NCBI RefSeq assembly: GCF_000959525.1
Contig: NZ_CP009832.1
Span: forward strand, 1,736,001 to 1,800,000
Reading direction: 5' to 3'
Length of the DNA stretch: 64,000 bases
DNA from: Burkholderia multivorans ATCC BAA-247
GTDB taxonomy: Bacteria; Pseudomonadota; Gammaproteobacteria; Burkholderiales; Burkholderiaceae
In this document: positions 11,792-23,939 of the stretch, one piece after another
How positions within the stretch are numbered: position 1 is the first letter of the stretch
How the letters are laid out: the number at the start of each line of letters is the position of its first letter
Position numbers and translations under genes: made by a program
The notes under the pieces: model-generated
Seen by the model: the letters and a program-made list of their open reading frames with translations, nothing else
Database searches by the model: none
Told to the model about the DNA's origin: nothing

Positions 11792-12715
11792 CTACGACTC
11801 GTGCCGAATGCGCTCGAGACCTTGCCGGTACGTGGTCACCTCGAAGCGCGGGAATCGGCGCTTGAACTTCGTGGAGTCAAAGAGGTTGTCCTGCTCGTAG
11901 CGCGGCAGCAGCTCCTCGATTTCACGTACTTGCGGCGAGAAGAGCCCCGCGGTCCGGAAGGCCCATTTCCCGACGATCGCATAAGCGGCCTTTTGTCCGA
12001 ATGCGCGGCTTGCCATCTCGACGAACTCCCGATATGTCGGGCGATCGTCGCAGCACGGCAGATGCCAGGTCTGTCCGAACGCGTCCGGCGTGTTGCCGAG
12101 CGTCGCGAGCGCGCGACTCGCGTCGGGCGTCCAGATCAGCGTGCGGCGCGTGTCGTCGCGCAACGGCACTTTCGGTTTCTTGCCGGCTTTCAGCTTGTCG
12201 ATGATCAGTGCATTCGTGAAGCTCTGGGTCTTGCCGGGACCGTAGAACTCGGGTGCACGGCCGATCAGGACGGGAATGTCGCCGCGCGCCATCTCATCGA
12301 GGACCATCGACGCCATCGCCGCGCGCACTTTGCCCTTGCGGCCGACCGGCGCGAACTGTGTCGATTCCGTTTGCGGCCGGTCGTCCTGCGGGTACATGTA
12401 GGTGTTGTCGAAGTAGGCGAACTTGGCGCCTTCCGCCCGGCACGCATCGAGTGCGTTCTTCAACATGACCGGAAACTGCGTTTCCCACAGCACGGTGTCG
12501 GGCGGCAGGCCTGCCGTGAAGTAGACGATGTCGCTGCCTTTCACCGCCTGCGCGGTCTGGCGCGCATCGAGCAGATTGGCCGACACCAGCGTATCGGTGT
12601 CATTGACCTTGCGCGGATTGCGGCTGACGAGACGTATATCCGCCGTGTCGATACGCCGCAGTTCCCGGGCCAGTTCCGTGGCGATCTGACCGTTGGCCCC
12701 TAATATCGTTTGCAT
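11792..12715 (-). CDS. NAD(P)-binding Rossmann-fold reductase/epimerase (NmrA/extended-SDR-like)
   Basis: A 307-residue protein beginning with a Rossmann nucleotide-binding turn, ILGANGQIATELAREL (GxxGxxA type), then an acidic strand-end region and YFDNTYMYPQ in place of a classical YxxxK site. Later blocks RAPEFYGPGKTQSF and DASRALATLG are typical of NAD-dependent epimerase/dehydratase family members. It likely reduces or isomerises a small carbonyl substrate in the cytosol, but the substrate is unknown. The gene is transcribed from a MerR-type promoter (12759-12789) with a perfect 9-bp dyad, placing it in the proposed MerR regulon. Confidence 0.8.
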   Translation of the reverse strand: MQTILGANGQIATELARELRRIDTADIRLVSRNPRKVNDTDTLVSANLLDARQTAQAVKGSDIVYFTAGLPPDTVLWETQFPVMLKNALDACRAEGAKFAYFDNTYMYPQDDRPQTESTQFAPVGRKGKVRAAMASMVLDEMARGDIPVLIGRAPEFYGPGKTQSFTNALIIDKLKAGKKPKVPLRDDTRRTLIWTPDASRALATLGNTPDAFGQTWHLPCCDDRPTYREFVEMASRAFGQKAAYAIVGKWAFRTAGLFSPQVREIEELLPRYEQDNLFDSTKFKRRFPRFEVTTYRQGLERIRHES

Positions 12716-12758: not shown

Positions 12759-12789
12759 AGGCTAACCTTGAAGGCAACTTCAAGGTCAA
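12759..12789 (-). promoter_or_regulatory. MerR-type promoter/operator A (reductase gene)
   Basis: Minus strand: TTGACC (12789-12784), exactly 19 bp, TAGCCT (12764-12759). The spacer holds a perfect inverted repeat ACCTTGAAG/CTTCAAGGT with a 4-bp centre (12765-12786). An overlong 19-bp spacer with a dyad is the hallmark of promoters that MerR-family proteins untwist. The -10 box is about 44 nt from the start codon. Confidence 0.85.
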
Positions 12790-13110
12790 GCAGTTAGCCG
12801 TTGTCGCGTGTCAGGTCCGCAGCGTTTGAGGAAGAGGCCGACGCGACGCAGGCCGCGGCCACTACGCTTAGCAAGGAGCGATGCGCGTTGTTTGACATGT
12901 TTCGGGACACGGATACTCCGTCGGCGTAGAGCCGGGGCAGTACACGGACGAACCGGATCGGCAACGCCGATCCTCGAAAACGATGCAACCGAGCGGCATG
13001 GCGCCCGGACGCGTCAAGCGCCACGATAGACGAGAACCGACTCGCGGCTTGTAGCGCATGCCCTTCAAGGGAACGGGCGCCGTGGGCCGAGCCCTCGGCA
13101 CCCGTGGCGG
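12790..13110. other. Intergenic region with a short secretion-signal-like frame
   Basis: About 320 bp between the reductase promoter and the alpha/beta hydrolase gene. On the minus strand 12898-12794 encodes 34 codons that look like a signal peptide (LLSVVAAACVASASSSNAA) and then stop. There is no ribosome site. It may be the stub of a lost secreted protein. I would not annotate it as a gene. Confidence 0.35.
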
Positions 13111-13941
13111 TTATCCGCGGAGGAACGCGAGCAGATCGGCGTTGATAGTCTCCGCGTTGGACGTCGGCATGCCGTGCGGGAAGCCCTTGTAGATCTTCAA
13201 CGTGCTGTTTCTGGCGAGCTTCGCCGACAGCACGCCGGAATCGGCATAGGGGACGATCTGATCGTCATCGCCATGCATCACGAGCACGGGAATCGTGGTG
13301 CTCTTCAGGTCCTCGGTAAAGTCGGTCTGGGAGAAGGCGACGATGCCGTCGTAATGCGCCTTGGCACTGCCCATCATGCCCTGGCGCCACCAGTTCCAGA
13401 TCACACCCTGCGAGGGTTGCGCGCCGGCACGGTTGTAGCCGTAGAACGGGCCCGCCGGAACGTCGTAGTAAAACTGGGCGCGGTTCGCGGCCAGTTGCGC
13501 CTGCAGGTTGTCGAACACGTCCTTCGGCAGGCCGCCGGGGTTTTGGTCGGTCTTGACCATCAGCGGCGGCACGGCACTGATCAGTACGGCCTTCGACACG
13601 CGATCTTCGCCATGTCGGGCGACGTAGTGGATGACTTCACCGCCGCCGGTGGAGTGGCCGACGTGAACGGCGCCTTGCACGCCGAGATGGTCGACTACTG
13701 CCGCCACGTCGTCGGCGTAGTGATCCATGTCGTGGCCGTCCCAGACCTGGCTGGAGCGTCCGTGACCGCGACGGTCGTGCGCGATGACGCGATAGCCCTG
13801 CGACAGGAAAAAGAGCATCTGGGCGTCCCAGTCATCCGCACTGAGCGGCCAACCGTGATGGAAGAAGATGACCGGTGCGTCGCGCGGCCCCCAGTCCTTG
13901 TAGAAGATCTGAACGCCATCCTTCGTTGTGACATATCCCAT
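13111..13941 (-). CDS. Alpha/beta hydrolase, non-haem chloroperoxidase/esterase type
   Basis: A 276-residue alpha/beta-fold enzyme of standard length. Visible are the oxyanion-loop HHGWPLSADDW, the nucleophile elbow GHSTGGGE (Ser near residue 97), an acid residue in MHGDDDQIVPY, and the catalytic His in FPHGMPTSNA. Cofactor-free chloroperoxidases and aryl esterases share this pattern; hydrolysis of an ester or lactone is the more general role. AAGGAG lies 8 nt upstream of the ATG. A MerR-type promoter at 14230-14260 would give a leader of nearly 300 nt. No signal peptide, so it is cytosolic. Confidence 0.88.
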   Translation of the reverse strand: MGYVTTKDGVQIFYKDWGPRDAPVIFFHHGWPLSADDWDAQMLFFLSQGYRVIAHDRRGHGRSSQVWDGHDMDHYADDVAAVVDHLGVQGAVHVGHSTGGGEVIHYVARHGEDRVSKAVLISAVPPLMVKTDQNPGGLPKDVFDNLQAQLAANRAQFYYDVPAGPFYGYNRAGAQPSQGVIWNWWRQGMMGSAKAHYDGIVAFSQTDFTEDLKSTTIPVLVMHGDDDQIVPYADSGVLSAKLARNSTLKIYKGFPHGMPTSNAETINADLLAFLRG

Positions 13942-14229
13942 GTCAGCACTCCTTTTCGATATTCAGATTGACAACCCGTGACGTATACGGCGATCGTTGC
14001 TGCTCCGTAATGGGCGGCTCCTTGGGTGAGGGTGATGGACGAGACGGCAACGCAACGATCGAGCAGGCATCCAGACACGTTGCCGGCGATGCGCAGGTCC
14101 GCGTCACCATTCGCTTGGACCTGGATGAGACATTGCGCTCCCTTTGTTGAGACAATTTGAAACGGGCGGTCGGCCGCGTACGACTGCTTACCTCCAGTCG
14201 GTCGCGCTTCGCCATGTCCTCACCGGGCA

Positions 14230-14260
14230 ACTTTAGGATTAAAGTCAACGTTAATGTCAA
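14230..14260 (-). promoter_or_regulatory. MerR-type promoter/operator B (hydrolase gene)
   Basis: Minus strand: TTGACA (14260-14255), exactly 19 bp, TAAAGT (14235-14230). Inner half-sites ATTAACG and CTTTAAT form a near-perfect dyad. It aligns column by column with sites A, C and D. Confidence 0.8.
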
Positions 14261-14663
14261 CAGTTTTTTGGCGTGTCGCGTGAGAATTGGCGAGCGTCTC
14301 GACCAGAGCCGTGCGCAGCTCGTGATCGCGATCGAGAGCATCGAGGACAAGCCGCACGGCATCGCTCGCGCAAACAATAGAAGCGCGTGGCCGACCGCCT
14401 GTGCGCAGCGGGAATTGCGCCCGATGCGGGCCCACTTCACGGCGGCACTGTCGGCTGATCTGCGTCGACGGCAAAAGCATGCCGTCCGAGCAGTGTGCTC
14501 GCTTTCACAGCGTGGACGAGGACGTCGGCTCAAATCCGTCAGGGAGTGGACCCAACGCAGCATGCCCGACGCCTCGTCGCACGGTTCCGTTCGGGATTCG
14601 CATGAATCAGGCGGCGCGACATCGGCGAATCGCGTCGATACATTCCCCGTCGTTGCGAAGTGC

Positions 14664-14694
14664 TTGACCTTAAAGTCATATTCAATCTTAGAGT
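14664..14694 (+). promoter_or_regulatory. MerR-type promoter/operator C (decarboxylase-merR operon)
   Basis: TTGACC, exactly 19 bp, TAGAGT. The spacer keeps the shared TT-A-A-T and TTCAA columns although its dyad is less perfect. The first codon of the decarboxylase gene is about 70 nt downstream. As merR is the second gene of this operon, the regulator would control itself. Confidence 0.8.
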
Positions 14695-14764
14695 GACCAT
14701 TGCCGGCTGTTGATCGGTATGCCGCTCGAGGCCCACCTGCCGGTTCAATCACGGAGAAGGGTCA

Positions 14765-15679
14765 ATGAATATGGACAAGCGGTTCACGCAGGTCGAGTTT
14801 GGCGCGCACAAGGTCGAGGTGCCTGCCGGAGGCTACTACGACCGTTACCGGATGAACCCGGACCTCGACGAAGTGGCGCGCGATCCTGCTGCAGGGAATA
14901 TCGACTTTTTTCGCAGGATCCCGAAGCGGCTCGTCGCGTCCACGGTCGGGCCGACCTGGGCGCCGAACTTCTACTACCGCTCCAGTCACGTGCAGTTGCT
15001 GTTCCTGGCGCCTGCCGATCGATTGCGGGCAATGTTGCCGATGCCGCTCGAGCCGCTGCGCGCCTATCCCGGCCGCGGACTGGTGGCGTTGACCTTCTTC
15101 TCGTATGCCGTTTGCGATAACGACCCCTACGACGAAGTCTCGGTCGCGGTGGTCGTCCGCCGGCCGGGCGCGCGCGGCCCGCATGCACTGGAGCTGCTCG
15201 ATTCCATGCGGCGCCGCAGCTTCCACGCGCATGTTCTCGCGCTGCCGGTGACGACGGAAATCGCGCGGGTGCGCGGTCTCTATGGGTATCAATTGCCGAA
15301 ATGGCGCACGGAGATCGGCGTGAGCATCGGCGCCGACGTCAGGGCCAGCATCGCCGGCCCCGGCGGCAAAGCGGATCTGACGCTGCGTGCGCCGCTTCCG
15401 GTGTTGCGCGATGTTCCATCGCAGTCCCATATGGCGACGGCGACCATGGTCAACGAGATTGACGGCGAGTGGCACCAGACGCGCGTGCAAACCAACATGC
15501 TCTCGTTCGCGCAGCGCCTCTTGCCGCGCGACGTCCGGCTGGCGCGGCACGATGGGCCGCTGAGCCAGCTGCTCGACGGACTCGGGGCGTCCACGGTGCT
15601 TCGCATGGACGTCGTCAAGGAGGCGCAGGTGGTCTTGAACATGCCCACCCGGCTAGACACTGTCACATTCACGACATGA
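14765..15679 (+). CDS. Acetoacetate decarboxylase (ADC) family protein
   Basis: A 304-residue protein with the ADC fold pattern: an Ala/Pro-rich strand VQLLFLAPADRLRAMLP, a strand GLVALTFFSYAV, and the active-site region GLYGYQLPKWRTEI holding a Lys in the position of the Schiff-base lysine. True ADC turns acetoacetate into acetone and CO2. Many family members act on other 2- or 3-keto acids or lactones, so the substrate is open. The start at 14765 follows GGAGAAGGG. The stop overlaps the ATG of merR by 4 nt (ATGA), so the two are co-translated. BKACE, further right at 27895, could supply acetoacetate. Confidence 0.82.
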   Translation: MNMDKRFTQVEFGAHKVEVPAGGYYDRYRMNPDLDEVARDPAAGNIDFFRRIPKRLVASTVGPTWAPNFYYRSSHVQLLFLAPADRLRAMLPMPLEPLRAYPGRGLVALTFFSYAVCDNDPYDEVSVAVVVRRPGARGPHALELLDSMRRRSFHAHVLALPVTTEIARVRGLYGYQLPKWRTEIGVSIGADVRASIAGPGGKADLTLRAPLPVLRDVPSQSHMATATMVNEIDGEWHQTRVQTNMLSFAQRLLPRDVRLARHDGPLSQLLDGLGASTVLRMDVVKEAQVVLNMPTRLDTVTFTT

Positions 15680-16149
15680 AGATAGGCGATCTGGCCGAGC
15701 GCACCGGCCTGACGCCGTCGCGCATCCGCTTCTACGAACGCATCGGCCTGTTGACGGCGGTCCGGCGGCAACCAAACGGCTATCGCGTCTATTCGCCGGA
15801 CGCCGTGGTAGTGCTCGGCCTCGTCGCGACCGCGCAGAAGGCCGGTTTCAGCCTGGACGAGATTCGCATGTTGCTGCCACCCGATCTTGGGCAGTGGCAG
15901 CGCGGTGCGCTGCTCGAAGCTCTCCGTCACAAGGTGCGGGACATCGACGCCATGCAGATCAAGCTGGCGCGGAACAAGGCTCATCTCGTGTCCTTGATGG
16001 CCGAGATCGAGGGCAAGCCCGACGAAATCGATTGCAGCGCCAACGCGGCGCGTCTGTTGTCGCAAATGCAGTCGAGGGAACCCGACGGCGCGGCGCGAAC
16101 GCACGGGGCAGTCAAGGCCGGACGACGCCGACCGACCGGCAAGGGGTAG
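15676..16149 (+). CDS. MerR-family transcriptional regulator
   Basis: A 157-residue regulator. The N-terminus has the MerR winged helix: MKIGDLAERTGL, RIRFYERIGLL and GYRVYSPDAV, followed by the second helix-turn-helix and a coiled-coil dimer helix (about residues 75-115). The C-terminal effector part is short and has a single cysteine (Cys120), without the paired cysteines of metal sensors, so an organic or electrophile signal is more likely. It overlaps the upstream ADC gene by 4 nt and lies downstream of promoter C. Four MerR-type promoters within 9 kb are its obvious targets; that link is inference from the shared architecture. Confidence 0.93.
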   Translation: MKIGDLAERTGLTPSRIRFYERIGLLTAVRRQPNGYRVYSPDAVVVLGLVATAQKAGFSLDEIRMLLPPDLGQWQRGALLEALRHKVRDIDAMQIKLARNKAHLVSLMAEIEGKPDEIDCSANAARLLSQMQSREPDGAARTHGAVKAGRRRPTGKG

Positions 16150-16223
16150 GCAATGTGCACGTGAGGGCGTTCGGGAACCGTCAACGTCAGCGCTCGAGCG
16201 CCGCCGCGCGGCACGCGCGTCTC

Positions 16224-17441
16224 TCAGCGTTTGCGGACGATCAACCCGGGATGCAGCTCCCGGCACGTACGCGCTCCGAGCATCGCCATGTCGCGATCGA
16301 CTTCTTCTTGCAACAGCCGGATCGCATGCGCGACGCCCGCTTCGCCGGCAACGGCCATCGCATAGTTGAAAGGTCGGCCGACGAACACCATCCGCGCCCC
16401 CAGCGCAATGGCTTTTAGAACGTCCGCACCGCGTCGGAAGCCGCCGTCGAGCATTACCGGAAACGCAGGCTCGAGAGCGGTCACGACGTCGCGCAGAATA
16501 CGCATCGGCGACACCGCACCGTCGAGTTGGCGGCCGCCATGATTGGACAGGATGATGCCGTCCGCGCCGACGTCGCGTGCGGCCAGCGCATCCTCCACGC
16601 TGAGGATGCCCTTGACGACCAGACTGCCTTTCCATTGCGCACGAATCTGCGCGAGATGCGTCCAGTCGAGGTGATCGCGCGCGGAGAAGTCGCGCAACAC
16701 GTGCGCGGACAGGATGGGCGCGCCGCGCGTGGCGAACGAATTTTCGAAGTGCGGCATCCCGTGCCGGAGCAGTGTCCGGGCGAACGTGCCGATCAGCCAG
16801 CGCGGCCGCGTCAGTCCGTCCCACGCGAGACGCATGCTCGGACGCAGCGGCGTGGAAAAACCGGTACGGACGTTGTTCTCGCGATTCGCCGCAACGGGAA
16901 TGTCGACGGTCACGACGAGCGTCCGGTATCCCGCGCGCGCGACGCGCTCGAGCAGCGCGGCGATGCGTTCGGGGTCGCCCGGAAGATAAGCCTGAAACCA
17001 GGTTGACGGCGCTGCCGCCGCGACCGCTTCGAGCGGGATCAGCGACGAGCCGCTCATGATCGACGCGATGCCTGCCGCCTGCGCCGCGCGGGCGAGCACG
17101 ATGTCGCCGCGATAGGCCGACAACGCGTTGATGCCCATCGGCGCGATACCGAAAGGCGCGGCGAACCGCTGCCCGAACAGGTCGACCGCCTGCGTGCGGG
17201 CCGACACGTTGCGCAGCACGCGCGTCGTGAAGCCGAACTCGTCGAACACGCTGCGGTTGTCGTCGCGCGTGCGATTGTCTTCGGCGGCGCCGCTCACGTA
17301 GCCGAAGATCGGACGCGGTAACACGCGGCGCGCGCGTGCTTCGAAGTCGTGCAGGCTCAGCATGTTGCGCAGCACGCGCGGCGGCTTGTCGGTGGGCGCT
17401 GCAGCGTCGCGACGAAGTGTGGCGCGATCGGCGACACTCAT
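16224..17441 (-). CDS. FMN-dependent alpha-hydroxy-acid oxidase/dehydrogenase
   Basis: A 405-residue TIM-barrel flavoenzyme of the LldD / mandelate dehydrogenase / glycolate oxidase family. Seen are the opening RPIFGYVSGAAEDNRT, FMN-binding APMGINALSAYRGD, and the catalytic-His motif GIILSNHGGRQLDG (His near residue 280), then the phosphate-binding LDGGFRRGADVLKA. It oxidises an L-2-hydroxy acid to the 2-keto acid. The start at 17441 is preferred because AAGGAG is 7 nt upstream; an ATG six codons earlier lacks one. It diverges from the LysR gene, which probably controls it. The exact acid (lactate, mandelate or other) is not readable. Confidence 0.87.
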   Translation of the reverse strand: MSVADRATLRRDAAAPTDKPPRVLRNMLSLHDFEARARRVLPRPIFGYVSGAAEDNRTRDDNRSVFDEFGFTTRVLRNVSARTQAVDLFGQRFAAPFGIAPMGINALSAYRGDIVLARAAQAAGIASIMSGSSLIPLEAVAAAAPSTWFQAYLPGDPERIAALLERVARAGYRTLVVTVDIPVAANRENNVRTGFSTPLRPSMRLAWDGLTRPRWLIGTFARTLLRHGMPHFENSFATRGAPILSAHVLRDFSARDHLDWTHLAQIRAQWKGSLVVKGILSVEDALAARDVGADGIILSNHGGRQLDGAVSPMRILRDVVTALEPAFPVMLDGGFRRGADVLKAIALGARMVFVGRPFNYAMAVAGEAGVAHAIRLLQEEVDRDMAMLGARTCRELHPGLIVRKR

Positions 17442-17543
17442 CCGGATTCTCCTTTTCATTCAAGACGAGGGCTCATGCTAGGTTGACCGGGGATTGAATA
17501 AAAGCGATATTCCTTCGAAATTCATGTTCGCTAAAAGAGAACG

Positions 17544-18443
17544 ATGTCGACGCCGACGCTCAAGCAGCTCGATGCCTTTTATTGGGCCGCGACCTGCGCC
17601 AATTTCGCCACGGCCGCGCAGCGGCTTCATTTGTCCGTGTCGTCGTTGTCGAAGCGGATCAACGAACTCGAACAGGTACTCGGGCGGACGCTGTTCGACC
17701 GAAGCGGCTATCGCGCCACGCTGACTCAGGACGGCGAAAGTCTGTTGCCGACGGCGCTGCGCGTGCTCGAATCGGTCGCGACGATCCAGGACACCTTCGG
17801 TCAGCACAACGGACTGTCGGGGCGACTACGCTTCGGCGTCGGCGAGTTGTCGGCGATGACCTGGCTGCCGCGTTTCGTCGCCGCCGTTCAAAAGCTGCAC
17901 GGCCAGCTGCAGCTCGAGCCGCATGTCGACGTCGGCGAGGCGCTCGAGGAGAAGGTCGACGCAGGCGAGCTGGACTTCGCGGTGGTCGCGGGTCGCTCGT
18001 CGCGCAGTAGCATCGTGTCCCAGCCGGTGGCGGAAGCGCGATTCGCCTGGATGGCCGCCGAGCGGCTCGTCGGCCGTCAGCGCACACTGACACCGGCCCT
18101 GCTCGCGCGGCATGCGCTCGTGACGCTGCCCGCCGGGTCGGGCGTCACGCGCATTCTGGACGAGTGGCTGCTGGCGCGCGGTATCGACAGTCCGCGCCAC
18201 ATTACGTGCAACAACTGGTTCGCCGTGGCCGGCATGTTGCGCGAAGGCGTCGGCATCGGCTTTCTGCCGACGGCATGGGAGGCGTCGCGCGCGGGCGGCA
18301 CGCTGGTCCGTCTGACGAGTCAGCCGGCGTTGTCGCCGCTGCATTACGCATTTCAGTGGCGGCGCGGCGACCTGCGCGCGACGATTCCGGCCATGCTGGC
18401 GCTCGTGCGGCTGCACGTGGCGTTCGACGTTCCGCTTGCATGA
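17544..18443 (+). CDS. LysR-family transcriptional regulator
   Basis: A 299-residue LysR protein with the N-terminal helix-turn-helix (LKQLDAFYWAATCANFATAA, then LSVSSLSKRINELE) and the two-lobe effector domain (GRLRFGVGELSAMTWLPRF, later GVGIGFLPTAWEA). It is divergent from the hydroxy-acid oxidase gene across about 100 bp and convergent with the MFS gene. This is the usual position for a regulator of its divergent neighbour. The effector is presumably a substrate or product of the cluster. Confidence 0.92.
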   Translation: MSTPTLKQLDAFYWAATCANFATAAQRLHLSVSSLSKRINELEQVLGRTLFDRSGYRATLTQDGESLLPTALRVLESVATIQDTFGQHNGLSGRLRFGVGELSAMTWLPRFVAAVQKLHGQLQLEPHVDVGEALEEKVDAGELDFAVVAGRSSRSSIVSQPVAEARFAWMAAERLVGRQRTLTPALLARHALVTLPAGSGVTRILDEWLLARGIDSPRHITCNNWFAVAGMLREGVGIGFLPTAWEASRAGGTLVRLTSQPALSPLHYAFQWRRGDLRATIPAMLALVRLHVAFDVPLA

Positions 18444-18477
18444 GCGGTCGCCGCACCGGCCCGTTGCGGGGCGGCGC

Positions 18478-19707
18478 TCAGCTGATTTCGCGTCCCTTCG
18501 TTTCCGGCAGGAGCAACGCAGTGATCAGCACGACGAGATAGGCGCCGCCCGCGAACATGCCGATCGCCATGCCGAGCCCGTAACCGTGGGCGAGATACCC
18601 GACGAGGCTCGGAAACAGCGCGCCGAGGCCGCGCCCGAAGTTGTACGCAAAGCCTTGTCCGTTGGCGCGCACGGCAGACGGAAACAGTTCGGTCAGGTAA
18701 GCGCCCATGCCGCTGAAGATGCCCGAGGCCGCGAAGCCGAGCGGGAATCCGAGGATCAGCATCTGGTCGTTGGTGAGTCGAAGCTGCGTATAGGCGTAGA
18801 TACTGATGCCGGACAGCATCGCGAAGATCAGCAGGTTCGCGCGGCGGCCGGCGCGGTCGGTCAGCCATGCGCCGGTGAGATAGCCGACGAACGATCCTAG
18901 AATGACGACCAGCAGATAGCCGCCCGTGCCGACCACCGACAGGTGACGCTCGGTTTTCAGGAACGTGGGCAGCCACGTGGTCACCGCGTAGTAGCCGCCC
19001 TGAACGCCGGTACACAGCAACGAGGTCAGCGCCGTCGTCTTGATCAGCGACGGCGAGAAGATCGTCCAGATGGACGTGCGCTTGTTGCTGGCTTGCTCCT
19101 GCTTGCGGGTACGCTGGAATACTTCAGGTTCCGGCACGCCCTTGCGGATGTACAGCACCAGCAGCGCCGGCAGCGCGCCGACCCAGAACAGCGCACGCCA
19201 TGCATAGTCTTCGGGCAGCCAGGAAAACAGAACGGTGTAGACGATGGCCGCGATCCCCCAGCCGATCGACCAGGCGCTCTGCACGGTGCCGACGGCTCGC
19301 CCGCGGAATTCGGTCCGAACGATCTCGCCCATCAGCACCGAGCCGACCGCCCATTCGCCGCCGAAGCCCAGCCCTTGCAGAGCCCGCAGGACGAAGATCT
19401 GTTCGAAATTCTGCGCGAAGCCGATCGCCACCGTGCAGCCGGAAAACCAGAGGATCGTCGCCTGCAGGATGCGTACACGCCCGTAGCGGTCGGCGAGGAT
19501 GCCGGCGATCCAGCCGCCGATGGCCGAGAACAGCAACGTGACGGTGGCCAGCAGGCCGGCCTGCGTGCTGTCGATCTTGAAAATCGAGATCAGCGTCGTG
19601 ATCACGAACGTGAACACCATGAAGTCGAGCGCGTCCATCGCCCAGCCGCCCGCCGCGGAAATGAAGGTCCGCCTTTCGGTGACGGACATGTTGCTGTACC
19701 AGCTCAT
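18478..19707 (-). CDS. MFS transporter, organic/aromatic acid:H+ symporter type
   Basis: A 409-residue inner-membrane transporter with about 12 hydrophobic helices and the MFS loop motif GILADRYGRVRI between helices 2 and 3. WAMDALDFMVFTFVI in helix 1 and LQGLGFGGEWAVGSVLMGEI in helix 4 are typical of the aromatic-acid and sugar-acid symporter subfamilies. It lies 47 bp behind the amidohydrolase gene on the same strand, so the two are probably one operon that imports and opens a cyclic or lactone-type acid. Length is normal for the family. Confidence 0.85.
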   Translation of the reverse strand: MSWYSNMSVTERRTFISAAGGWAMDALDFMVFTFVITTLISIFKIDSTQAGLLATVTLLFSAIGGWIAGILADRYGRVRILQATILWFSGCTVAIGFAQNFEQIFVLRALQGLGFGGEWAVGSVLMGEIVRTEFRGRAVGTVQSAWSIGWGIAAIVYTVLFSWLPEDYAWRALFWVGALPALLVLYIRKGVPEPEVFQRTRKQEQASNKRTSIWTIFSPSLIKTTALTSLLCTGVQGGYYAVTTWLPTFLKTERHLSVVGTGGYLLVVILGSFVGYLTGAWLTDRAGRRANLLIFAMLSGISIYAYTQLRLTNDQMLILGFPLGFAASGIFSGMGAYLTELFPSAVRANGQGFAYNFGRGLGALFPSLVGYLAHGYGLGMAIGMFAGGAYLVVLITALLLPETKGREIS

Positions 19708-19754
19708 CGTGTCTCCTTGTCATATGGCCGCTGAGCGGCGCGTGCTTGCGTCGT

Positions 19755-20657
19755 TTATGGATTGCCGCGCGGGAAACCGTACAGGCGGGCCGGGTTGTCG
19801 ACGAGAATCCGGCGCCGCATTGCTGCGTCGGGCGCCCACTGCGCGAGCAGGTTGCGCAGGTGGCCGGTGTTGGGCATCCTGGCCGCTTCCAGCGACACAT
19901 GCGGCCAGTCGCTGCCCCAGACGATCCGGTCGGGCGCGTCGTCGATCAGTGCCTGCGCGAACGGCGTCACGTCGTCGAAAGTCGGGAAGCGATCGCTGAT
20001 CCGGTAAGCGCCGGACAGCTTGACCCAGAAGCCATGCCCGACCACCAGTTCGCGAAGGGCGGCGAATCCCGGTGAAGCCAGCCCCGCGGCGACGGGCGTA
20101 TGGCCCATGTGATCGACGATGCCGGTGATCGGCAGCCTCGCCATGCGCGGCATCAGTTCAGGCAGCGTCTTCACGTCCATCAGGAACTGCATGTGCCAGC
20201 CCAGATCCTTGATGCGGTGCGCCAGCGTCTCCATCGCGGCGAAGCCGATGCCGCCGCCGAACAGCACGTTGATGCGCAGCCCGCGCACGCCAGCCTCGTG
20301 CATGGCCTCGAGTTCCCGGTCGCTGATTTCGGGCGGCACGACGGCGATGCCGCGCAGCCGCTGCGGATGACGGCGCAGCGCCTGCAGCATGTAGCGATTG
20401 TCGGTGCCGTGCACGCTGACCTGAACCAGCACGCCATAGGTGCAGCCGACCGCGTCGAGCATCGCGAGGTATTGCTGTTCCGACGCCTCCGGCGGTGTGT
20501 AACTGCGTTGTGCGACCATCGGATAGTCGGGGCTGGTCGAAATCACGTGCGCATGCGTATCGACGGCGCCCCGAGGCATCTCGAACGCGGGCGGATCGAC
20601 ATCGGGTAAAGGGGCGGCGCATCGAAACTCGGCGCCGGAACGAGCCGGTTCAGTCAT
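19755..20657 (-). CDS. Amidohydrolase-family hydrolase (2-pyrone-4,6-dicarboxylate lactonase-like)
   Basis: A 300-residue TIM-barrel hydrolase. It has the metal-binding DTHAHV motif near residue 35, GIVDHMGH in the middle and WGSDWPHVSLE near the C-terminus (catalytic Asp), the set seen in LigI-type lactonases and related amidohydrolase-2 enzymes. These open lactone rings of aromatic breakdown intermediates in the cytosol. The start at 20657 follows GAGGAG; another ATG 11 codons upstream lacks one. First gene of a likely operon with the MFS transporter. The substrate is inferred only by family. Confidence 0.82.
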   Translation of the reverse strand: MTEPARSGAEFRCAAPLPDVDPPAFEMPRGAVDTHAHVISTSPDYPMVAQRSYTPPEASEQQYLAMLDAVGCTYGVLVQVSVHGTDNRYMLQALRRHPQRLRGIAVVPPEISDRELEAMHEAGVRGLRINVLFGGGIGFAAMETLAHRIKDLGWHMQFLMDVKTLPELMPRMARLPITGIVDHMGHTPVAAGLASPGFAALRELVVGHGFWVKLSGAYRISDRFPTFDDVTPFAQALIDDAPDRIVWGSDWPHVSLEAARMPNTGHLRNLLAQWAPDAAMRRRILVDNPARLYGFPRGNP

Positions 20658-21177
20658 CGTGGTCTCCTCGAATGATCGGAAGCGAGCCATGCGGATGATA
20701 CGTGCGCCCGGTGTCGGATCGGCGCTTGCCGAGCGATCGCTTTACGTGCGCACGCGGCGCCCTGGAGCGCCATGCGAGCAAGGGCGCGCATCGGGGCCGG
20801 CGAGCACGGATTCCATGGCTTGAGAAGCGTAGCCGGAACTGCACGCCCAATACAGCGAATTAATCAATAGCCGAACGTTCGCTTTTTCGAAACATTGCAA
20901 TCCTGCTCAGGGGGATACCGATGCGCGCGATCTCGTGTCGTTGATGGCAGCGGTCGGCGGCAAGCCGGGCGACACCGGATTGCACCGCGAACGCGACGCA
21001 CCGCACCGATTGTGCGAGCCGCAATCTGCTCGGCCGTTTGCTCGTGACCGCCGACATGGTCGGCATCCCGGACATCCAAGACTATTCGCATCCGGGCGCT
21101 TGACATTCAACTTTGGTTCAACCTTAAGGTGCCGGTAGTCGGCTGAGCCATTGCGATATGAGGCAAGGAAGCAATAC
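20658..21177. other. Intergenic region before the molybdoenzyme operon
   Basis: About 520 bp. It contains MerR-type promoter D at its right end. One frame (20945-21103, plus) has no start codon but ends in a plausible protein-like tail (LLGRLLVTADMVGIPDIQDY) whose stop overlaps the -35 box of promoter D; it may be the stub of a lost gene. An AT-richer patch lies near 20860-20900. No confident gene. Confidence 0.4.
21100..21130 (+). promoter_or_regulatory. MerR-type promoter/operator D (molybdoenzyme operon)
   Basis: TTGACA, exactly 19 bp, TAAGGT. Inner half-sites ATTCAAC and GTTCAAC match the shared pattern of sites A-C. The start codon is 47 nt downstream of the -10 box. Confidence 0.82.
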
Positions 21178-21645
21178 ATGAATCTTGACGTCAACCGCCA
21201 AGCGATGAACATCGATTGCGACCCGTCCACGCCGTTGCTGTGGGTGCTACGCGACCACTTGAACCTGACGGGGACGAAGTTCGGCTGCGGCGTTGCAGCG
21301 TGCGGCGCGTGTACCGTGCATCTGGACGGTGCGGCGGTGCGATCTTGCGTCCTCCCGGTGGCAGCGGTTGCCGGCAAGCGCATCACCACGATCGAAGGGC
21401 TGGCCGAATCGCCGGGCAAGCGCCATGCGTTGCAGCAGGCCTGGATCGACGAACAGGTACCGCAATGCGGCTATTGCCAGTCGGGCATGCTGATGGCGGC
21501 GGCAGACCTGTTGGCAAGGCAACCGGACCCGACCGACGCCGATATCGACGCGGCCATCACCAACCTGTGTCGCTGCGGGACGTACCCGCGCGTGCGCATG
21601 GCCATCAAGCGTGCGGCGAAGGCGCTGCGGGAGGGCCGCGCGTGA
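21178..21645 (+). CDS. Isoquinoline 1-oxidoreductase alpha-type [2Fe-2S] subunit
   Basis: A 155-residue iron-sulfur subunit of the xanthine-dehydrogenase superfamily. It has the plant-type cluster site [14 protein letters not shown] and the second cluster site [11 protein letters not shown] with CRCGTYPRV, which pass electrons from the molybdenum site. The start at 21178 ([10 protein letters not shown]) is backed by AAGGAAG; the in-frame upstream codons are not family-like. The stop overlaps the GTG start of the large subunit by 4 nt. There is no FAD subunit, as in isoquinoline and some aldehyde oxidoreductases that donate to cytochromes. Driven by MerR-type promoter D. Confidence 0.92.
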
Positions 21646-23939
21646 GTGTCGACGCGACCAATGTGCGGCGCGGGCGGCGCCGGTTTCTGCTAGGCGCGCT
21701 TGGCGTCGGCGGTGCGCTTGTGGTCGGCTGGGGCGTGATGCCGCCGCGCAGCCGGCTGGGCGGTCCTGACGCGTTTCCCGCAGTGTCAGGTCAGATCGCG
21801 CTGAATGGCTGGATCAAGATCACGCCGGAAGGCAATGTGATCCTTGCCATGCCGCGTGTCGAGATGGGGCAGGGCATCCACACGGCGCTGTCGATGTTGG
21901 CCGCCGAGGAGCTCGATATTCCGCTTGAGCGCGTGAGTATCGAGTCGTCGCCGATCGAGCGTCTCTACGGTAACGTCGTCGCCATGGGCGATAGCGCGCT
22001 GCCGTTGCATCCGGACGACGCAGCCAGGGTCTGGGCGCGCGCACTGCACTGGATCATGGCCAAGGGCGCACGCGAGATCGGCCTGATCGTCACCGGCGGC
22101 AGCAGCAGCATGGCCGACGGCTGGCAGCCCGTGCGCGAGGCCGCCGCGACGGCGCGCGCTGCGCTGGTGGAAGCGGCCGCGCGCGAATGGGGCGTGCAGC
22201 CGACGCAGATCACGGTGCGCGAAGGCCAACTGATTGGCCCCGACGGTAAGCAGATGCCGTTCAGCGCCGTTGCGCGAAAGGCGCGCGAGATTGCGCCGCC
22301 ATCCAATGTCACGCTCAAGCCGGCTGCGCAATACCGGTTGGTCGGCAAGCCTGCGCCACGCAACGACATCGCCGGCAAGACGGACGGCAGCGCCCGTTTT
22401 GCGATCGACGCGAGGCCGCCCGGCATGGTGTACGCGGCCGTGGTCATGTGTCCTGTATTCGGCGGCAAGCTCAAGACGTTCCAGTCGAAAGCGGCGCTTG
22501 CCATGCCCGGCGTGCGGCATGTCGTGCCGTTCGATGGCTCGACGGGCGGCGCGCCGGGCGTCGCCGTGGTGGCCGATCATTACTGGCAGGCACGACAAGC
22601 ACTCGCGGCGCTCGAGCCCGTATGGGACAACGGACCGAATGCCACGCTCGATTCGGCTGGCATCCGTGAGCAACTCGTCGCTGCGCTGAACAGCGACAAG
22701 GACGGCTTTACCTATCGCTCCACGGGCCATGGTCTGAAGGCCTTCGAGAAGGCGCAGGGTGCGACCATCGTGGAGGCCGAATACAGCGCGCCGTATCTTG
22801 CGCATGCCGCCATGGAGCCAATCAACTGCACGGCGCAGGTGACCAAGGATCGCGTGCAGCTTTGGGCGCCGACGCAGGTGGCCACGCTGGCCCAACTGGT
22901 CGCGGCTCGTGCGGCAGGCGTGAGCCGCGATCAGGTACATATCAATATTCCGCTGATCGGCGGCGGCTTCGGGCGGCGGCTCGAATCGGACTTTGTGGCT
23001 CAGGCCGTGACGATCGCTGTCCACACCGAGGGGCGCCCTGTGCAGGTGATCTGGTCGCGCGAAGGCGACATCCGACACGACTTCTATCGCCCGCAAGCCA
23101 TCGCGCGGCTGAAGGCGCGTGTCGAGAACGGCAGGGTGACGGCCATCGCGTCGCGCAGTGTCGGCCAGTCGATCCTGGCCGGCGAACTGGAGCGCCTGTT
23201 CGGCATGCCGTCGCCCGGTATTGATCGCTACACGGCGGAAGGTTTGTTCGACCTGCCATACGAGATCGAGCACGAACACATTGCGCATCGGGTGGTCGAC
23301 TTGCCGGTGCCGATCGGCTTCTGGCGCAGCGTCGGCCACTCCTATACGGCATTCTTCCTCGAAGGCTTTCTGAACGACGTGGCAGCTGCGGCGAGGATCG
23401 ATCCGCTGGCGATGCGGCGCGATCTGCTCAAGGCGCATCCACGCGAGCTGAAGGTGCTCGACATCGTGGCGCAAGCGGCCGACTGGGGCCGGCCGCTTGC
23501 GCCGGCAGCCGACGGTGCGCCGCGTGCGCGCGGATTGGCGCTGCACAATTCGTTCGGATCGGTGGTGGCACAGGTCGCGGAAGTGTCGCTCGAGGCGGGC
23601 AGGCCGCGCGTGCATCGCGTCGTTTGCGCGGTGGACTGCGGAATGGTCGTCAATCCGGGCATCGTCACGCAGCAAATCGAAAGCGCGATCATCTTCGGCT
23701 TGAGCGCGGCGCTGTACAACCAGATTCAGATCAAGGACGGACGGGTCGTGCAGGCCAACTTCCCCGATTACCCGGTGCTGAAAATGGCCGAGACGCCGGT
23801 GATCGAAACGCACCTCGTGCCGAGCGTGGCAGAACCGACCGGAGTCGGTGAAATTGCCGTGCCTCCGATCGCGCCGGCTGTCGCACATGCCGTTGCGCAA
23901 CTCACCGGCAAGCCGGTGCGGCAGTTGCCGATGGTGTAG
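21642..23939 (+). CDS. Isoquinoline 1-oxidoreductase beta-type molybdopterin subunit, Tat-exported
   Basis: A 765-residue molybdopterin-binding subunit. The N-terminus has a twin-arginine signal ([16 protein letters not shown]), so the enzyme is probably folded in the cytosol and exported or anchored outside it. Molybdopterin motifs are seen in [28 protein letters not shown] and, near the end, [17 protein letters not shown] with the catalytic Glu. Family enzymes hydroxylate N-heteroaromatics or oxidise aldehydes. The start is GTG at 21642, overlapping the small subunit (GTGA). Length and order match IorA-IorB pairs. The true substrate is unknown. Confidence 0.9.

Follow-up and report, generated by a model that had tools for sequence, protein, structure and literature searches.

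The stretch of DNA analyzed here, below referred to as the window, comprises 64,000 nucleotides of contig NZ_CP009832.1 of Burkholderia multivorans ATCC BAA-247 (positions 1,736,001 to 1,800,000 of the forward strand). It carries genes for an NAD(P)-binding protein, an alpha/beta hydrolase, a protein weakly similar to acetoacetate decarboxylase (ADC) that is followed by the MerR-type regulator MerR1, and the two subunits of a molybdenum hydroxylase (Table 1). Each of these four genes or operons is preceded by a promoter in which the −35 and −10 boxes are separated by an overlong spacer of 19 bp. From the comparisons described below, we consider these four promoters, with a probability of roughly 87%, to be operators of one MerR-family regulon of redox- and detoxification-type enzymes.

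The preliminary description of this DNA had reported four promoters of the form TTGAC[A/C]-19 bp-TANNNT, and all of them were recovered at the positions and on the strands that it had given. When the distance between the two boxes was varied from 13 to 25 bp across the window, a spacing of 19 bp was found four times, 16 bp twice and 18 bp once, while the other ten spacings did not occur at all. The four spacers have a mean pairwise identity of 0.614, and eight of their 19 columns are invariant. Intergenic 19-mers picked at random have an identity of 0.263 and did not exceed 0.50 in 20,000 draws; the 60-bp flanks of the sites share 18–38% identity, i.e., they are unrelated. The column pattern noticed earlier in the spacers likewise holds, with four matches in the window and none in 100 shuffles, a comparison that is circular because the pattern was derived from these same sites. 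A position weight matrix (PWM) built from 60 distinct sites of other genomes gave the four sites scores of 42–49, and the runner-up in the window, at 10.4, was the reverse strand of site 1. A site similar to site 1 is also present ahead of the orthologue of target gene 1 in other Burkholderia.

According to one study, MerR-family promoters are recognized by a spacer of 19–20 bp with a dyad between the boxes whose center lies 7–8 bp from the −35 box, and 22-bp sites of the MerR class have their dyad center 8 bp past this box (PMC5045206). In the window, the spacer measures 19 bp in all four cases and the axis of the 22-bp dyad lies 8 bp past the −35 box; by this geometry, the operon of merR1 itself carries a MerR-type promoter (site 3), as had been proposed. 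Among the axes tried, position 14.5 was the best in all four sites, and the next axes of site 3 reach four pairs. Judged by the number of pairs matched out of 11, two dyads are clear (sites 1 and 2) and two are partial (sites 3 and 4), so that the three clear inner dyads originally counted were one too many. The mean number of pairs observed (7.37) nearly equals that of a column-shuffled null (7.27), and the dyad is hence a property of the consensus and not of paired changes.

Table 1. Predicted operator-promoters, genes and merR relics of the locus in window coordinates; dyad, base pairs matched out of 11; distance, from site to start codon.
Feature	Position	Strand	Description	Distance (bp)	PWM score	Dyad
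Site 1	12759..12789	-	TTGACC-N19-TAGCCT; putative operator-promoter of NAD(P)-binding (SDR-like) gene	43	45.8	9/11
Site 2	14230..14260	-	TTGACA-N19-TAAAGT; putative operator-promoter of alpha/beta hydrolase gene	288	49.2	7/11
Site 3	14664..14694	+	TTGACC-N19-TAGAGT; putative operator-promoter of ADC-like gene-merR operon	70	47.5	5/11
Site 4	21100..21130	+	TTGACA-N19-TAAGGT; putative operator-promoter of molybdenum hydroxylase operon	47	42.2	6/11
Target gene 1	11792..12715	-	NAD(P)-binding epimerase/NAD_binding_10 protein, 307 aa (Pfam)
Target gene 2	13111..13941	-	Alpha/beta hydrolase of the non-heme chloroperoxidase/esterase type, 276 aa (Pfam)
Target gene 3	14765..15679	+	304 aa, weak similarity to acetoacetate decarboxylase (26.4 bits with Pfam ADC; cut-off 29.8)
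merR1	15676..16149	+	MerR regulator, 157 aa, 4-base overlap (ATGA) with end of preceding gene; single Cys at 120 (Pfam MerR_1)
Target gene 4a	21178..21645	+	[2Fe-2S] small subunit of xanthine dehydrogenase/aldehyde oxidase-type enzyme (Pfam Fer2, Fer2_2)
Target gene 4b	21642..23939	+	Molybdopterin large subunit, N-terminal RRRFLLG (Pfam MoCoBD_1/2)
merR2 relic	14280..14455	+	Middle deleted; a short 5' end and the C-terminal part remain (tblastn; blastn to intact merR2 of G007/G020 and the C2 copy; local alignment)
merR-like relic	20925..21002	+	78-bp remnant of the C-terminal part, located upstream of site 4 (78% identity with merR1 of L105 and L092, blastn)

The nearest solved structures of the hydrolase are an esterase (1zoi) and a non-heme chloroperoxidase (4dgq). 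For target gene 3, the earlier label of a decarboxylase is a weak one: the similarity to ADC stays below the Pfam cut-off, and a single-sequence search found no solved structure at E ≤ 1; we therefore speak of an ADC-like protein. The N-terminus of the molybdopterin subunit carries what we take to be a Tat-like motif.

The motif is not restricted to the window. We scanned the whole genome (6,322,746 bases, three contigs) allowing up to two mismatches and found it at seven places, six of them exact, while a reversed-pattern control found none. Two exact sites lie outside the window, both on contig C1, one in front of a shortened (relic) ADC-like gene followed by a saccharopine-dehydrogenase-like gene and the other in front of a DJ-1/PfpI gene; the regulon is thus not confined to 9 kb, as had been supposed. 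The seventh place (L020), with two mismatches and a matrix score below 5, was taken as chance. Ten MerR homologues were matched in this genome, among them MerR1 and its nearest paralogue, MerR2, which is encoded by an intact gene on contig C2 (738185-738580), with a degraded divergent site adjoining it and a truncated ADC-like gene after it; this locus (L019 5868-6835) is a second copy of the hydrolase-side locus. At the loci of the eight more distant homologues (L010-L017), no comparable site was found (best score, 5.1).

Among 65 genomes of the genus, the strict pattern was present in 46 (reversed control, 0/65) and the MerR protein in 52 (E ≤ 1e-25). The two sets disagree in 10 of the 65 genomes. 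Two of these (G010 and G047) have a site and no MerR at this threshold, and in both a more distant member of the subfamily adjoins the site; the other eight have the MerR without a strict site, and all of them possess a near-site (best matrix scores 37.9–46.9). We extended the comparison to 299 genomes of the family, with the pattern relaxed a little and with a MerR subfamily profile (E ≤ 1e-30), by which the best 12 candidates per genome were scored. A site was found in 94 genomes and the MerR subfamily in 90: 90 genomes had both, four the site only, none the MerR only and 205 neither, and the reversed control matched one of the 299. At three of the four site-only matches (G074, G230, and G269) no known target gene is present, and the fourth (G278) is a hydrolase promoter. 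In the own genus (g1), 33 genomes have both, eight have neither and none is discordant, and agreement extends to further genera of mixed state (both/neither: g3, 15/23 and one exception; g11, 19/12 and one; g20, 7/31; g24, 15/1; g10, 1/37 and two). The co-occurrence of the sites with this kind of merR, which the preliminary description had named as a check on its proposal, is thus nearly perfect.

To type the genes behind the sites, 82 same-genus loci chosen for holding a site or the MerR were inspected, and the gene families were named after inspection; locus L216 was dropped from the tally since it overlaps L215, and the same-genus loci L212 and L213 were counted under "other". The 82 loci hold 126 sites. 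For 125 of these, a gene from one of eight families starts no more than 450 bp downstream, and for one site none was found; the families are Old Yellow Enzyme (OYE; 37), ADC-like (32), DJ-1/PfpI (22), hydrolase (18), SDR (7), saccharopine-dehydrogenase-like (7), molybdenum hydroxylase (1), and MerR (1). A match to MerR, relics included, lies within 200 bp of 66 of the 126 sites and within 6 kb of a further 35, and is farther away or outside the fetched stretch for the remaining 25. Among the places listed were 33 further loci, mostly from other genera, with 51 sites (OYE, 24; hydrolase, 10; MerR, 5; others, 7; none found, 5). The commonest target in the relatives examined is therefore an Old Yellow Enzyme ene-reductase, mostly encoded divergently from merR, while our strain lacks an OYE of the target family at E ≤ 1e-60. 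Sites that belong to different target families share 75% identity as compared with 28–30% for their 60-bp flanks, from which it follows that they do not descend from one duplicated promoter region. Hydrolase homologues are present in eight, and OYE homologues in six, of 11 genus genomes devoid of the MerR, and at the 21 loci concerned nothing like the site was found (best PWM score, −5.1). This supports, without proving it, the notion that the presence of the site is tied to the regulator rather than to the target gene.

This set of enzymes might also serve the catabolism of one particular compound, such as an aromatic or heterocyclic nutrient, instead of a general detoxification of electrophiles. 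A molybdenum hydroxylase, an OYE, a lactonase/esterase-type hydrolase and an ADC-like enzyme could indeed form a pathway, and the set is accessory and patchy (94/299 genomes). However, its composition varies between genomes, its members mostly have separate promoters and include DJ-1/PfpI, and in several genomes the OYE-merR pair stands without other targets nearby, so that we regard a dedicated catabolic regulon as possible but doubtful.

The MerR-type geometry of the regulon, the regulator's own operon included, agrees with the preliminary description. MerR1, which that description inferred to act on all four promoters, may not do so alone, since the operator is common to a MerR subfamily of which a second intact copy resides on contig C2. 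As far as can be judged from these comparisons, the operator is not peculiar to MerR1 but goes with this subfamily, whose paralogues are frequently encoded divergently from an OYE gene and often number several per genome. Nine genomes of the genus (G006, G010, G030, G031, G033, G037, G039, G041, and G044) have one match to the MerR subfamily and two sites on different contigs, the unlinked one preceding an ADC-like, a PfpI, or a saccharopine-dehydrogenase-like gene; in such genomes, one regulator would have to act in trans. In G029 (L121 4461-6245), merR2 is interrupted by a gene pair that is presumably insertion sequence (IS)-like, and the hydrolase, ADC and PfpI sites are kept in the locus and an SDR site elsewhere. 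Both findings speak for action in trans on a shared operator.

A midpoint-rooted tree of 104 MerR proteins, from which the frameshifted MerR of L111 and duplicate rows had been left out, places the OYE-divergent MerRs on the branches nearest the root, groups MerR1 of the window with MerRs encoded downstream of ADC-like genes, and unites the hydrolase-divergent MerRs (27 rows) in one supported group that contains the C2 copy of our strain. The last point bears on the idea that the four sites are read mainly by MerR2, with MerR1 serving its own operon only. The C2 gene is an intact open reading frame whose product falls into the hydrolase-divergent clade (99/97 support with its orthologues in G007 and G020), and the local copy beside site 2 has decayed. 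Yet all clades have one operator in common, sites on other contigs persist where a genome has just one MerR match, and the divergent site of the C2 copy is itself degraded (TTGGAATC..., PWM 27.7); in addition, the C2 protein lacks one residue that is present in its nearest orthologues, though other members lack it too. We consider such a division of labor unlikely, and return to a subfamily whose members would share one operator. Since the root of the tree is a midpoint, the tree allows us to infer, and not to observe, that the OYE-divergent arrangement came first; the hydrolase, ADC, PfpI, SDR, and molybdenum hydroxylase promoters seem to have been added later, to be read by duplicated MerRs that kept this operator.

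MerR1 scores well above the cut-offs of the Pfam models MerR_1 (65.7; cut-off 21.6), MerR (56.0; 28.2) and MerR-DNA-bind (38.6; 25.4). As described earlier, it has one cysteine, C120, and no two-cysteine metal loop. This residue is kept in 36 of 36 aligned members of a selection and in 74 of 76 same-genus members, the exceptions being the frameshifted L111 protein and L140 (Arg). In a profile alignment with the Bacillus MerR 4ua1, C120 falls on the second cysteine of the metal loop; the first has no counterpart, and the window MerR has Arg at position 76, where 4ua1 has a third cysteine. The ene-reductase, DJ-1/PfpI and aldehyde-oxidase-type targets together with C120 suggest an organic electrophile as the signal, most likely a reactive enone, quinone or aldehyde, that is perhaps sensed through C120.

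A regulon under a metal-sensing MerR of the CueR/CadR kind appears quite improbable to us. CueR is the top solved structure found with the subfamily profile, CueR and Hg-MerR are among the nearest solved structures and NCBIfam models, and column 76 is Cys in 16 of the 76 same-genus members; all NCBIfam scores, however, are far below the cut-off (CueR, 70 of 147), and 171 of 177 sites precede genes of enzyme families or MerR, with no metal transporter among those typed and six sites not typed. Almost all metal-sensing MerRs are reported to have two loop cysteines (PMC9909328), as against C120 alone in the window MerR. With this sole cysteine, the missing first loop cysteine and the low model scores, we rejected the canonical arrangement of a metal sensor. 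Chance similarity, or promoters duplicated along with their genes, can be practically dismissed. Such motifs do arise by chance in AT-rich genomes, and the reversed pattern matched 5 of 369 genomes at the level of the class, but it matched none in the own genome or the 65 genus genomes and one of 299 in the family, and the target genes are non-homologous with unrelated flanks and agreeing sites.

Several observations weigh against a single MerR-family regulon that responds to electrophiles. At two of the four sites in the window, the dyad is weak. The relatives are not independent of each other, so that a Fisher test on the co-occurrence overstates the case, and most of the genes that went into the MerR profile had been picked up next to sites, with only the best 12 candidates per genome scored. 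G278 has a hydrolase site and no MerR at the threshold used. The homologues in MerR-less genomes are mostly distant (hydrolase, 58–72% identity; OYE, 44–61%), and many may be paralogues and not orthologues of the targets. The second intact MerR on contig C2 could serve some or all of the sites. In the class, eight of 369 genomes match, our strain included, which is hardly above the reversed control; these genomes were scanned with the exact pattern only, for which reason divergent operators would be missed. Two of the class-level matches (G461 and G596) sit between a MerR-like gene and an OYE gene, and of the five others, L210 (G504) has no known target gene alongside, while the remaining four may be chance. 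As to the signal, 34 of the 76 same-genus members have one cysteine and 41 have two or three, the further ones not being conserved, and the case for an electrophile is made by the enzyme families and this one cysteine.

In the mechanism that we envisage, a dimer of the small MerR (MerR1, perhaps also its C2 paralogue MerR2) would occupy the 22-bp dyad of the overlong spacer of 19 bp and repress or poise the promoter. Upon sensing its signal, MerR would untwist the DNA so that sigma-70 RNA polymerase could use the −35 and −10 boxes. Its targets would be the NAD(P)-binding reductase, the non-heme-haloperoxidase-type hydrolase, the ADC-like enzyme together with MerR1 itself, and the exported molybdenum hydroxylase, and the two promoters on contig C1 (relic ADC/saccharopine-dehydrogenase-like genes; DJ-1/PfpI gene) would also belong to the regulon.

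Such a mechanism would be ordinary MerR activation; what appears to be new is the subfamily, its conserved C120, the shared operator and the set of enzymes. With the CueR/Hg-MerR class, the window MerR shares the fold, as judged by sequence, and a 19-bp-spacer promoter with a central dyad, but it has lost the first loop cysteine, carries Arg at the position of a third cysteine of 4ua1, and would control enzymes. SoxR, which has redox-type targets in some bacteria, is likewise a MerR-family protein acting at long-spacer promoters; its arrangement was rejected because MerR1 has a single cysteine, where the [2Fe-2S] loop of SoxR has four, and scores 40 with the SoxR model (cut-off 117). The carbonyl-electrophile regulators AdhR and NmlR are small MerRs reported to regulate aldehyde detoxification enzymes (PMC4776306). 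Small size, one conserved cysteine and detoxification enzymes are common to these and the window MerR, but NmlR/AdhR depend on Cys52/54, whereas the window subfamily has an invariant Gln at 54 and its cysteine at 120; with Q54, the sole Cys at 120, and 45 bits against a cut-off of 175 for the NmlR model NF041849, this arrangement was rejected as well. LiuR, reported to be a MerR regulator of several enzyme operons in Proteobacteria (PMC5343134), resembles our case in this description and differs by its branched-chain amino acid targets. In a literature search for which most subscription papers were out of reach, we came across neither this operator nor a MerR-OYE regulon.

Tentatively, and with slightly less than even confidence, we propose that this separate MerR subfamily of Burkholderiaceae and some other proteobacteria, in which one half of the metal loop is lost and C120 remains without its partner, senses organic electrophiles through a thiol. 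Its duplicated regulators would share one operator, and what began as an ene-reductase switch would have expanded into a detoxification regulon on several replicons, able to outlast the decay of individual regulator genes. The operator, the target set (OYE, ADC-like, non-heme-haloperoxidase-type hydrolase, DJ-1/PfpI and exported molybdenum hydroxylase) and a candidate regulator are now at hand, and a stress or catabolic response of Burkholderia and its relatives becomes testable. The system bears on the turning of a metal-sensor fold to another signal, and on the way in which paralogous regulators with one operator expand and then lose members.

The locus itself gives the impression of a larger cluster that has since decayed. 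In the preliminary description, merR1 was the only MerR gene of the window, which is true of intact genes, but two relics are present in addition (Table 1). In G007 and G020, a full second merR lies divergent from the hydrolase gene, 20 bp from site 2, and this site is identical in the window. The same two genomes carry an orthologue of the molybdenum hydroxylase operon (L092 and L105) with a diverged but recognizable site (PWM 38.1).

Between merR1 and the molybdenum hydroxylase operon (16224-20690), the window has four genes, by eye those of a hydroxy-acid dehydrogenase, a LysR regulator, an MFS transporter and an amidohydrolase, where G007 and G020 have a DJ-1/PfpI gene; this gene set looks like an insertion or rearrangement. 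The larger clusters of the relatives contain genes for a catalase and a peroxidase (L105 8881-10416 and L092 8261-10471), the latter presumably of the KatG type, and neither gene has a site of its own among the six best-scoring places per locus. Further afield, a Hyphomonadaceae (alphaproteobacterial) metagenome bin encodes a MerR with 61% identity (residues 1-135) divergently from an OYE-like gene, with a near-site of PWM 45.3 (L186 2691-4417). Two genes that resemble an IS21-type pair interrupt the ADC-like gene of G007 (L092 12597-15467).

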